This document shows, piece after piece, positions 44,492-47,437 of a stretch of DNA of 64,000 nucleotides (its first letter is position 1; the number at the start of each line of letters is the position of its first letter). The notes beneath the pieces were generated by a model. The model was not told the origin of the DNA and made no database searches. It saw only the letters and a list, made by a program, of their open reading frames with translations. The DNA comes from Streptomyces spiramenti (GTDB taxonomy: Bacteria > Actinomycetota > Actinomycetes > Streptomycetales > Streptomycetaceae), in contig NZ_JAAVJB010000005.1 of the NCBI RefSeq assembly GCF_012034385.1, positions 1 to 64,000 on the forward strand. The letters are read 5' to 3'. The position numbers and the translations under genes were made by a program.

Positions 44492-45178
44492 ATGACTCAC
44501 CCCGCGGGGGTCCCCGTCCCACCGCCGGCGCCCCCGGAGGCCGGCGTCACCGGCGAGTTCCGGCTCCCGCCGCCCACCCCGGCGCCCCAGCAGCCTCCCG
44601 CCGCCCCCGCGGACCCCGCGAGGGCGGCGCTCGCAGTCCTGCTGATCGGGCCCGCCGGCGCGGGGAAGACCACGGTCGCGCGGCGCTGGGCCGACCACCG
44701 GCAGGTCCCCACCGCCCACATCAGCCTGGACGACGTCCGAGAGTGGGTCCGCTCCGGCTTCGCCGACCCCCGCTCCGGCTGGGACGAGCGCTCCGAGGCC
44801 CAGTACCGCCTGGCCAGACGCACCTGCGGCTTCGCGGCACGCAACTACCTCGCCAACGGCATCTCCTGCGTCCTGGACGACGCGGTCTTCCCCGACCGGC
44901 CCGCCATCGGCCTCGGTGGCTGGAAGCGGCACGTCGGCCCGGGGCTGATCCCGATCGTGCTGCTGCCTGGCCTGGAGGTGGTCCTCGCCCGGAACGCCGA
45001 ACGCAGCGGCACCCGGCGCCTCGCCGACGAGGAGGTCGCGGCGATCCACGGCCGGATGGCGGGCTGGTACGGATCGGGCCTGCCGATCATCGACAACTCG
45101 CGACTGGACGTGGAGACAACGGTCGGGCTGATCGACGAGGCCGTCGCGCGGAGCTTCACCACCCCCCTGGACTGGTGA
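44492..45178 (+). CDS. P-loop ATPase/kinase of the AAA_33 (zeta-toxin/PNK) type
   Basis: 228 aa. A Pro-rich N-terminus (1-45) precedes Walker A GPAGAGKT (53-60), then HISLDDVREW with the base-binding Asp pair and NAERSGTRRLADEEV with the lid arginines, as in polynucleotide-kinase-like and zeta-like enzymes. Substrate unknown; no antitoxin gene is adjacent, so a toxin role is unlikely. I took the ATG with GGAG nine bases upstream; an ATG at 44408 just after TACGCT would add 28 Arg-rich residues. Confidence 0.72.
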   Translation: MTHPAGVPVPPPAPPEAGVTGEFRLPPPTPAPQQPPAAPADPARAALAVLLIGPAGAGKTTVARRWADHRQVPTAHISLDDVREWVRSGFADPRSGWDERSEAQYRLARRTCGFAARNYLANGISCVLDDAVFPDRPAIGLGGWKRHVGPGLIPIVLLPGLEVVLARNAERSGTRRLADEEVAAIHGRMAGWYGSGLPIIDNSRLDVETTVGLIDEAVARSFTTPLDW

Positions 45179-45278
45179 GCGGTTCCCTGTGGCGGGGACA
45201 CCGCCGCCCGGGGCAACCTCGGCCACGTCCGGCCCAGTCGGACGGGCCGGCCGCCGGTGCGCTGCGTAGTCTCGGACC

Positions 45279-46376
45279 ATGTCCGAGGTACACGCGGCAC
45301 GGCGCGCGGCACTGCGCGCCCACTGTTCCCCGGGTGACGGCACGGCGCTGCTGATCTCCCGTCCCGCCAACCTCCGCTACCTGGTCGGTGCGGTGCCCGC
45401 CCACGCGGCGCTGTTGCTGACGCCCGGCGGTGAGGACGTCCTCGTCGGCGGCGGGGGCGCGTCCCGGCCCGGGGCACCGGACGACACCCTGCGGCTGCTC
45501 GCCGTCGACGGTGACACGGACCCCGCGGCCACCGCGGCCGTCCTCGCGGCCCGCGGCGGGGCCGCCTCGCTCGCCGTCGAGGAGCATCACCTGACGGTGG
45601 CGCGGTACCGCGCCGTCCGCGCGGCGGGCGGCGGCCTGCCCCTCGGTGACCTCGCGCGGGCGGTGGAACACCGCCGACTGGTCAAGGACGAGGCGGAGAT
45701 CGCCGCGCTGCGCACCGCCGCGGAGATCACCGACCGGGCACTGGGCGAACTTCTGGAGTCCATCCTCGTCGGCCGCACCGAGCGCCACCTCGCCCTGGAG
45801 CTGGAGCGGCGCCTGGTGGACCACGGCGCGGACGGTGCCGCGTTCCCCACCTCGGTGGCGACCGGCGCCAACTCCGGCACCGCCGGGCACCGTCCGACCG
45901 ATCGGCGGGTCGAGGAGGGCGACTTCCTCACAGTCCGGCTGGGCGCCCGCTACCGGGGCTACCGCTGCCGGATCGGCCGCACCTTCGTCATCGGCAGCCG
46001 CCCGGCCGACTGGCAGATCGAGTTGTACGAGCTCGTCTTCGCCGCTCAGCGCGCCGCTCGGGAGTCGCTGGCCCCGGGGACGGAGTGCCGTGAGGTCGAC
46101 CGCGCGGCGCGTGCCGTGCTCGACGTCGCGGGCCACGGGGACGCCCTCGGCCCGCTCACGGGGGAGGGGGTAGGGCTCGAAATGGGAGAGGACCCGCGTC
46201 TGGCCCCGGCGGCCATGGGTAGACTGGGCGTTCGTGTGCCGGTCACCGTCGAACCCGGGGTTCACCTCCCGGGCCGGGGCGGGGTCCGGATTGACGACAC
46301 GCTCGTCGTTCGCCCCGTGGCGGACGGCGGACCCGAGCTACTCACCATCACGACCAAGGAACTCCTCGCCCTGTAG
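45279..46376 (+). CDS. M24-fold aminopeptidase P-like protein, probably inactive
   Basis: 365 aa with the creatinase-like N-terminal domain (1-130) and pita-bread C-terminal domain. Of the five metal ligands of M24 peptidases, both Asp positions are Arg (R220 in TVRLGA, R231 in CRIGRT), the His is Glu (E296 in GEGVGL), the first Glu is kept (E325 in TVEPG) and the second is Asp (D339). H204 is kept. It is therefore unlikely to bind two metals or cleave Xaa-Pro bonds. TAGTCT six bases before the ATG suggests leaderless expression. It precedes efp, as in other streptomycetes. Confidence 0.82.
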   Translation: MSEVHAARRAALRAHCSPGDGTALLISRPANLRYLVGAVPAHAALLLTPGGEDVLVGGGGASRPGAPDDTLRLLAVDGDTDPAATAAVLAARGGAASLAVEEHHLTVARYRAVRAAGGGLPLGDLARAVEHRRLVKDEAEIAALRTAAEITDRALGELLESILVGRTERHLALELERRLVDHGADGAAFPTSVATGANSGTAGHRPTDRRVEEGDFLTVRLGARYRGYRCRIGRTFVIGSRPADWQIELYELVFAAQRAARESLAPGTECREVDRAARAVLDVAGHGDALGPLTGEGVGLEMGEDPRLAPAAMGRLGVRVPVTVEPGVHLPGRGGVRIDDTLVVRPVADGGPELLTITTKELLAL

Positions 46377-46442
46377 CTCCGCTCGGGGGTCGGGCGGGAG
46401 CGCCTCCGGTCACCAGCAGCAGCCTCAGGAGATTCCGCGACC

Positions 46443-47009
46443 GTGGCCACAACGAACGACCTCAAGAACGGCATGGTGCTCAAGCTCGACGGGGGCCAGC
46501 TGTGGTCCGTAGTCGAGTTCCAGCACGTCAAGCCCGGCAAGGGCGGCGCCTTCGTCCGCACCAAGCTCAAGAACGTGCTCTCCGGCAAGGTGGTCGACAA
46601 GACCTTCAACGCCGGGACCAAGGTCGAGACGGCCACGGTGGACCGACGCGGCATGCAGTTCTCCTACAAGGACGGTGCCGACTTCGTCTTCATGGACACC
46701 GAGACCTTCGATCAGCTGACCATCACGCCGGAGACGGCCGGCGAGACCGCCAACTACCTCCTCGAGGGCCAGGACTGCACCGTCGCCATCTACGAGGAGA
46801 GCCCGCTCTTCATCGAGCTGCCGGCCTCCGTCGAGCTGGTCATCGAGTACACCGAGCCCGGTGTGCAGGGCGACCGCTCGACCGGTGGCACCAAGCCGGC
46901 GCGGCTGGAGACCGGCTACGAGATCGCGGTGCCGCTCTTCATCACCACCGGTGAGAAGGTCAAGGTCGACACCCGCTCGGGCGAGTACATCGGCCGGGTG
47001 AACAGCTAA
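46443..47009 (+). CDS. efp: Translation elongation factor P
   Basis: 188 aa, three beta-barrel domains. The tip loop is [16 protein letters not shown] with K33 at the apex; this actinobacterial loop type is thought to work without lysine modification, and no epmA/yeiP-type gene is nearby. C-terminus [19 protein letters not shown] is canonical. EF-P relieves stalling at proline runs. nusB follows two bases after the stop. Confidence 0.97.
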
Positions 47010-47011
47010 CC

Positions 47012-47437
47012 GTGGCCGCACGCAGCAAGGCACGCCAGCGCGCGCTCCAGATCCTCTTCGAGGCGGACCAGCGCGGCGCTCCCGTCAACGAGGTCCTCGC
47101 CGACTGGGTGAGGTTGTCGCTGGACGACGACCGCCAGCCCCGGGTCAGCGAGTACACCATGACGCTGGTCGAGGGCTACGCCGAGAACGCAGTCCGCATC
47201 GACGAGCTGCTGTCCACCTACACGGTGGGCTGGCCGCTGGACCGGATGCCGGTGGTCGACCGCAACCTGCTGCGGCTGAGCGCGTACGAGCTGATCTGGC
47301 AGGACGAGACGCCCGACGCCGTCGTCCTCGACGAGGCCGTGCAGCTGGCCAAGGAGTTCTCGACCGACGACTCTCCGGCCTTCGTCAACGGCCTGCTCGG
47401 CCGCTTGAAGGAGCTCAAGCCGACCTTGCGTCGCTGA
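47012..47437 (+). CDS. nusB: Transcription antitermination factor NusB
   Basis: 141 aa all-helical. ARSKARQRALQILFEADQRG carries the boxA RNA-binding face; VVDRNLLRLSAYEL and SPAFVNGLLGRL the C-terminal core. Works with NusE in rRNA antitermination. Directly downstream of efp; a bidirectional terminator separates it from bldD. Confidence 0.95.
   Translation: MAARSKARQRALQILFEADQRGAPVNEVLADWVRLSLDDDRQPRVSEYTMTLVEGYAENAVRIDELLSTYTVGWPLDRMPVVDRNLLRLSAYELIWQDETPDAVVLDEAVQLAKEFSTDDSPAFVNGLLGRLKELKPTLRR

Follow-up and report, generated by a model that had tools for sequence, protein, structure and literature searches.

Why does a streptomycete keep, just upstream of efp, a gene for a peptidase-like protein whose active-site residues are gone, yet which is as conserved as its neighbours between sister species? 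This question is raised by one gene of Streptomyces spiramenti, found in the window (the whole 64,000-nucleotide stretch of DNA that was analysed). Its relatives form a living series in which the metal ligands are intact, could form a single site, or form none, and this series lets the role of the protein after the loss of enzyme chemistry be tested. By extension, it may show the purpose of the PepQ-efp pairing in bacteria. Mycobacterial pepQ influences drug susceptibility, according to PMC12955440.

The gene, its locus and its active-site columns

The gene lies at 45279-46376 on the forward strand, as do all features described here. It encodes a degenerate M24B (PepQ/YqhT-like) protein of 365 residues plus stop, as determined from its open reading frame, Pfam matches and alignments. 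The protein matches PF00557 over model positions 2-207 of 208 with 165.9 bits (cut-off 23) and PF01321 (Creatinase_N) with 32.8 bits (cut-off 22); both domains of M24B Xaa-Pro peptidases, Creatinase_N and Peptidase_M24, are present. Against the NCBIfam PepQ equivalog model NF040821, it scored 158.6 bits, under the curated cut-off of 630. This failure is not specific to degeneration, since three relatives with intact ligands also fall below the cut-off (L066, 246.3; L060, 235.4; L134, 209.2).

Upstream of the gene are what we take to be a small ATPase gene and aro genes. The ATPase gene (44492-45178), part of the same locus as efp, has a proline-rich start with the stretches VPVPPPAPP and RLPPPTP. 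Proline-rich stretches such as these need EF-P. Downstream, efp (elongation factor P, 46443-47009) begins 66 bases after the M24 gene and is followed by nusB (47012-47437), which is named here in line with the locus order in PMC3359211. That paper describes pepQ-efp-nusB, followed by bldD, as a putative conserved operon in Saccharopolyspora erythraea. The best explanation is that the window protein is the streptomycete ortholog of the actinobacterial PepQ-type M24B peptidase of the pepQ-efp-nusB locus.

The position before efp, which the earlier note had described as kept, is indeed retained. Among the nearest loci (the best 80 of at least 588), efp starts 47-86 bases past the last M24 codon in 80 of 80. 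The M24 gene is upstream of efp in all 76 Streptomycetaceae efp loci fetched, and 20 of 73 efp loci from other families have no detected M24 gene within the fetched stretch of about 1.5-1.7 kb; these counts omit one duplicate locus and two refetched ones, and contig ends may hide genes. For genera g20 and g21, which belong to another family of the order, the sampled members (L190-L193) yielded no M24 gene ahead of efp. One of the 61 family genomes, G276, gave no efp match.

The metal columns were read directly and by alignment with the solved Xaa-Pro peptidases 1wy2 and 1pv9 and the aminopeptidase YpdF (5cnx), all of which have Asp, Asp, His, Glu and Glu. The window protein has R220, R231, E296, E325 and D339 (R-R-E-E-D) at these columns. 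R220 (45936-45938) is in the column of the first Asp, presumably a ligand of metal site 2 only (M2) in the enzymes. R231 (45969-45971) is in the column of the bridging Asp, E296 (46164-46166) in that of the His ligand and D339 (46293-46295) in that of the bridging Glu; E325 (46251-46253) is the sole ligand kept. Thus, the claim of the earlier note that four ligands are replaced and E325 alone is kept was confirmed by both the reading and the alignments. D339 is the weakest of the four substitutions because it is a conservative change from Glu to Asp and is common to nearly all proteins of type A, the largest group described below.

The set of five M24B ligands (D, D, H, E, E) is therefore absent from the window protein. 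A further His, which we assume to be catalytic and which is present in 57 of 57 intact relatives, is also absent; its column holds G303 (46185-46187). Other pocket residues remain. H204 (45888-45890) is the same in 182 of 182 degenerate distinct proteins and is His in 48 of 57 intact ones, so that nine intact relatives lack it. E304 (46188-46190) and R337 (46287-46289) are each the same in all 182 degenerate and all 57 intact distinct proteins. At columns 204 and 337 the window protein thus has what is expected of an M24B peptidase. Judging from its metal columns, the window protein cannot form the known di-metal centre.

The family was aligned across Streptomyces at the five ligand columns. 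S. lonarensis and S. bohaiensis, two sister species with 96% and 95% identity, have the same five residues, R-R-E-E-D, and the substitutions are therefore not sequencing noise. The genome of the window strain holds four other M24 copies. Three of them (L001, L003 and L004) are D-D-H-E-E by alignment, and the translation of the fourth (L005), inspected by eye, looks the same, so other genes of this genome can supply the catalysis.

Ligand states and the order of loss among relatives

Genes upstream of efp were sampled in the genus, family, order, class and phylum, together with the 80 nearest loci, which are a non-random set. The ligand tally comprises 239 distinct proteins. It leaves out L116, L137 and L148, for which even the best profile match fell short in length, and loci without a detected M24 gene, and it includes two proteins with split profile matches, from g10 and g15, that were added by hand. 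For the 246 Streptomyces genomes surveyed, ligand columns were read in fetched loci only (73 sampled Streptomyces loci).

All 57 distinct efp-adjacent M24 proteins outside the degenerate clade have D-D-H-E-E, and seven of these come from two Streptomycetaceae genera (g2 and g5). From 15 of the 17 sampled Streptomycetaceae genera, every one of the 182 distinct proteins is degenerate: 160 are of type A, 21 are of type B and one is from g15. The tree unites the degenerate proteins in a single clade (branch length 0.325, support 0.979) whose sister group is g2 and g5; this monophyletic group has lost D220 and D231 and is adjacent to efp. As read from these sequences, the degeneration for the most part long predates the window strain.

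The commonest type A set is C-E-H-E-D, found in 103 of 160 distinct proteins. R-R-E-E-D occurs in three of the 160, namely those of the window, S. lonarensis and S. bohaiensis, and S. otsuchiensis has R-R-N-E-D. Examples from type B are A-S-H-G-E, V-S-H-G-E and A-A-A-G-E. In the type B genera (L183, L082, L083, L085 and L206) E325 is lost too and H296 is gone in several, which is a second route to ligand loss. The g15 protein has E-A-H-E-Q, and in this copy (L205) about 50 extra residues are inserted just ahead of column 296.

Two further claims of the earlier note concern these relatives. It had stated that streptomycete relatives keep the His, and this proved correct for 144 of 153 Streptomyces loci (CAC in 139 and CAT in 5 at codon 296), where the 153 are the 73 sampled loci and the 80 nearest loci, two sets that partly overlap. 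It had also stated that the window copy has gone further than its relatives. That is the case compared with most of the streptomycete relatives read, but the copy is not extreme, since several type B proteins keep fewer ligands.

The changes inferred on the tree show an order of loss. Within type A, 13 changes were inferred at column 220 (the 82nd percentile of C-domain sites), 14 at column 303, 4 at 231, 5 at 296, 1 at 325 and 2 at 339. Columns 204, 304 and 337 have zero inferred changes in both type A and type B. The first Asp is lost in all of the degenerate clade and the catalytic His in nearly all. We take columns 231 and 339 to bridge both metals and columns 296 and 325 to belong to site 1, as in known MetAP and aminopeptidase P structures. 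With this assignment, the pattern of loss indicates that site 2 was lost first. Most type A proteins keep the acid-His-acid-acid set E231, H296, E325 and D339, which could hold one metal. Given the site 1 set, H296 is expected to be necessary while residue 231 can bind metal.

Column 296 follows this expectation. It has 0 changes on branches where residue 231 is acidic (length 10.34) compared with 10 on branches where it is not (8.60), for a one-sided binomial p value of 3.7e-4. This value is a guide because the tallies were already known when the test was picked, eight columns were looked at and parsimony supplied the ancestral states. The control columns 220 (10:9) and 303 (13:7) show no bias by the state of residue 231, and all C-domain sites together split 1036:857 (acid to non-acid), as branch length predicts. 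In the clade of the window protein, E231 changed to Gln or Arg, and H296 then changed in several lineages, becoming Glu in the window. The pattern suggests that a single metal may still be bound by most streptomycete copies but would not be by the window lineage (E231 to Q/R, H296 to E). Throughout type A, including the members that have lost H296, E325 is kept or, in a single small clade, replaced by Asp, and D339 is kept in all but two cases.

The EF-P loop differs among the same loci. The window and most of its clade have the loop PGKGG (46533-46547), which occurs in 27 of 34 Streptomyces loci with Gln or Arg at residue 231 and in 0 of 99 with E231; all 99 sampled Streptomyces loci with E231 have PGKGP. 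A link between loop type and ligand state was set aside as evidence because the pattern comes mostly from one clade and some loci are duplicates. Identity between the window EF-P and that of some other genera reaches 89%, compared with 74-80% for most sampled Streptomyces.

Selection on the protein and on its 3' codons

In comparisons with S. lonarensis and S. bohaiensis, the M24 gene of the window has a dN/dS of 0.052 and 0.090, respectively. The neighbouring genes (aroB, aroQ, the ATPase gene, efp and nusB) have values of 0.041-0.121 in the same pairs. Compared with S. otsuchiensis and S. sedi, the values rise to 0.227 and 0.247, against 0.083 and 0.176 for efp, and in the S. otsuchiensis pair the M24 gene exceeds all five neighbours. 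Therefore, at greater divergence the protein evolves more quickly, and most of this change falls in the N-terminal domain, which has a mean of 19.6 inferred changes per site compared with 5.75 in the C-domain. In the C-domain, 108 of 236 sites have no change at all in 160 type A tips.

Of 246 Streptomyces genomes, 243 yielded the M24 gene. The three without it (G050, G079 and G112) have paralogues only, and efp is also missing from their assemblies. Contig ends truncate the copies in G028, G163, G198 and G242. The earlier note had named frame or stop mutations in sister strains as a sign of simple decay. There are none in the two sisters; among the 246 genomes, the matches of G119, G171, G198 and G224 shift frame, the last with an internal TGA as well, so the gene, or the assemblies, can break. 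Simple decay or an assembly artefact was rejected as an explanation on the basis of the low sister dN/dS and the presence of the gene in 243 of 246 genomes.

Two parts of the protein are especially constant. Residues 157-184 (45747-45830) form a helix-turn-helix stretch, with helices at 138-160 and 168-181 in the AlphaFold2 model, which we assume from the fold to be at the protein surface. No change was inferred at residues 157-175 across the 160 type A tips, and a few were in type B. The codons of 157-184 vary freely (residual codon entropy +0.15), and thus the constraint acts on the protein. Close intact relatives have nearly the same stretch, and it is a putative docking surface that would be older than the loss of catalysis. 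At the C-terminal end, residues 350-356 and 358-365 have zero inferred changes in type A and type B. AlphaFold2 gave a mean pLDDT of 63.0 for the window protein and 64.7 for a C-E-H-E-D relative, from shallow alignments (44 sequences), and the models were left out of the pocket analysis. The pocket and its salt bridges are not visible in the model because pLDDT is below 50 over residues 295-365 (293-369 in the relative).

Synonymous sites near the 3' end of the gene are also frozen. When 134 thinned Streptomyces sequences were compared in windows with 2000 shuffles, codons 311-327 (46209-46259) formed a first block beyond the 1% level and codons 340-363 (46296-46367) a second, with 340-359 beyond 1% and 352-363 beyond 5%. 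Three rare choices stand out in the 153 Streptomyces loci: GGT at codon 314 in 152 (background 8%), AAA or AGA at codon 315 in all 153 (5% of Lys and 0.8% of Arg codons) and, inside the second block, the rare CTA at codon 354 (46338-46340) in 152 (background 0.6%). This CTA is replaced by CTG in 20 of 20 type B loci and 6 of 6 loci of g18 and g19. Therefore, part of the C-terminal conservation lies at the nucleotide level and not in the protein.

Codons 314-316, some of them rare, contain TAGACT (46220-46225), a -10-like TANNNT motif 218 bases before efp. TANNNT is present in 207 of 207 loci of Streptomycetaceae and two other families of the order and in 28 of 44 more distant loci, and it is kept although residue 315 switches between Lys, Arg and Thr. 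The simplest idea is that it is possibly the -10 element of an internal efp promoter. A sigma-70 consensus scan of 46200-46600 gave no site, so the -10-like reading comes with no recognised -35. RNA structure found no support as the reason why the 3' end is frozen: for 21 sequences, the covariation term from RNAalifold was 0.22, with two-sided change at 2 of 54 pairs. Nor did the native sequences show clearly greater stability than codon-shuffled controls (mean z of +0.58 for codons 311-360 and -0.71 for 318-355, with 25 Streptomyces sequences). An Rfam scan of 45000-47200 returned four matches, all under the gathering scores. Perhaps the frozen blocks are a cis element for efp.

Possible roles of the window protein and known systems

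The window copy is further degenerate, its place at efp is kept and its dN/dS is low, so the best reading is a selected role without the di-metal site. We consider that the protein is probably a selected non-peptidase binding protein, as judged from sequence comparison. It would have ceased to be a peptidase, and its former metal cluster would be filled by a charge network of R220 and R231 against E296, E325 and D339 that holds the fold. What is retained would be non-enzymatic binding by parts inherited from the active ancestor, namely the C-terminal end and residues 157-184; H204, E304 and R337 may in addition surround a residual ligand pocket. In the most speculative step, the partner could come from translation, as EF-P, the ribosome, or nascent or proline peptides. 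Such a link is suggested, by analogy, by the efp neighbourhood and the precedent of Ebp1. The earlier note had proposed a selected non-enzymatic role, perhaps in peptide binding or translation; the selected role agrees with the strong purifying selection and the kept locus, and for the part on peptides and translation the evidence is gene position. Some pocket chemistry may persist in type A, which we count against the non-peptidase reading.

In a different reading, the family still consists of enzymes or metal proteins, with the single-metal site retuned at E231-H296-E325-D339, and the window clade would have lost the site later, within a family that otherwise binds metal. H296 is kept in 138 of 138 type A rows with E231 (out of 174 rows, duplicates included), column 296 was never lost on branches with an acid at 231, and a possible ligand (D, E, H or C) is present at all five columns in 104 of 160 distinct type A proteins. 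It does not apply to the window protein, with its R220, R231 and E296; residue 231 is non-acidic in the Q/R clade, type B and g15 without loss of the gene, and the column 303 His is in only 3 of 174 type A rows. We regard it as a real possibility, somewhat short of an even chance. Since it concerns the family majority, it is compatible with the binding-protein reading of the window copy, and the chances given to the two do not add up to a whole. Loss of ligands alone is no proof of inactivity because M24 relatives such as creatinase work without metal. A metal-free hydrolase could reuse the pocket in the same way through H204, E304, R337 and the new Arg/Glu pair. The invariance of these three residues in all 182 degenerate proteins and the creatinase precedent (1chm matches at E 6.1e-12) speak for such an enzyme. 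Columns 220, 303 and 296 vary within type A (13, 14 and 5 changes), unlike a conserved new active site, and we think it decidedly unlikely.

The frozen codons raise the question of whether the coding region is kept mainly as the host of a cis-regulatory element for efp, with the protein of little importance. Both frozen blocks and the near-universal rare codons at 314, 315 and 354 are what this would predict. However, the frozen part is only about 40 of 365 codons, the amino-acid constraint is equally strong in 157-175, where codons are free, and the whole-gene dN/dS is low between sisters; we find it unlikely. Slow decay, with the gene drifting toward a pseudogene and the window copy at a late stage, is very improbable. 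It would account for the loss of four of five ligands and the catalytic His, the fast N-terminal domain (19.6 compared with 5.75 changes per site) and the broken frames in G119, G171, G198 and, with its TGA, G224. It is contradicted by sister dN/dS of 0.05 and 0.09, near the values of the neighbours, by the 243 of 246 genomes with the gene, of which the remaining three also lack efp, and by the 108 unchanged C-domain sites. The binding-protein reading can also be drawn in its fullest form, as an ancient core streptomycete pseudopeptidase serving translation like Ebp1 or Arx1. In this form the second metal would have been lost and then the first, in a fixed order, an arginine-carboxylate cluster would replace the metals in the window lineage, and a preserved outer helix would dock on EF-P, the ribosome or nascent proline-rich chains. 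As a whole, we find this picture rather doubtful.

The closest known systems are the PepQ/YqhT (PapA) M24B Xaa-Pro peptidases beside efp, which have the same position in pepQ-efp-nusB and the same two Pfam domains. In contrast to them, the window protein is without the metal ligands at 220, 231 and 296 and the catalytic His at 303. The mycobacterial Rv2535c locus presumably has the gene order pepQ-efp. Loss of function of this PepQ has been linked to cross-resistance to bedaquiline and clofazimine, as stated in PMC12955440. In Bacillus subtilis, yqhT and efp are both listed in one sporulation screen in PMC4703394.

Ebp1/PA2G4 and Arx1 resemble the window protein as M24 folds without activity in a translation setting. 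A Leishmania homolog is reportedly an M24 pseudoenzyme (PMC3888471). These proteins differ in being eukaryotic and MetAP-2-like, with an insert domain and a Lys-rich tail, and the window protein scored only 18.6 bits with the Ebp1/PA2G4 model TIGR00495 (cut-off 430.05). Ebp1 has no catalytic activity and is located at the ribosomal tunnel exit, as described in PMC7005732. The window protein also matches Spt16 (5ce6) at E 2e-5, a weak and partial match to a eukaryotic histone chaperone. The Spt16 N-terminal domain of FACT has an aminopeptidase P-like fold without a peptidase role. Creatinase, an M24 fold working without metal, gives the stronger match already noted (1chm). Our literature search, with most subscription papers outside its scope, returned no description of a streptomycete degenerate efp-adjacent M24 clade. 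Inactive M24 proteins are already known, and this one is a bacterial, family-wide variant in which the order of loss can be read.
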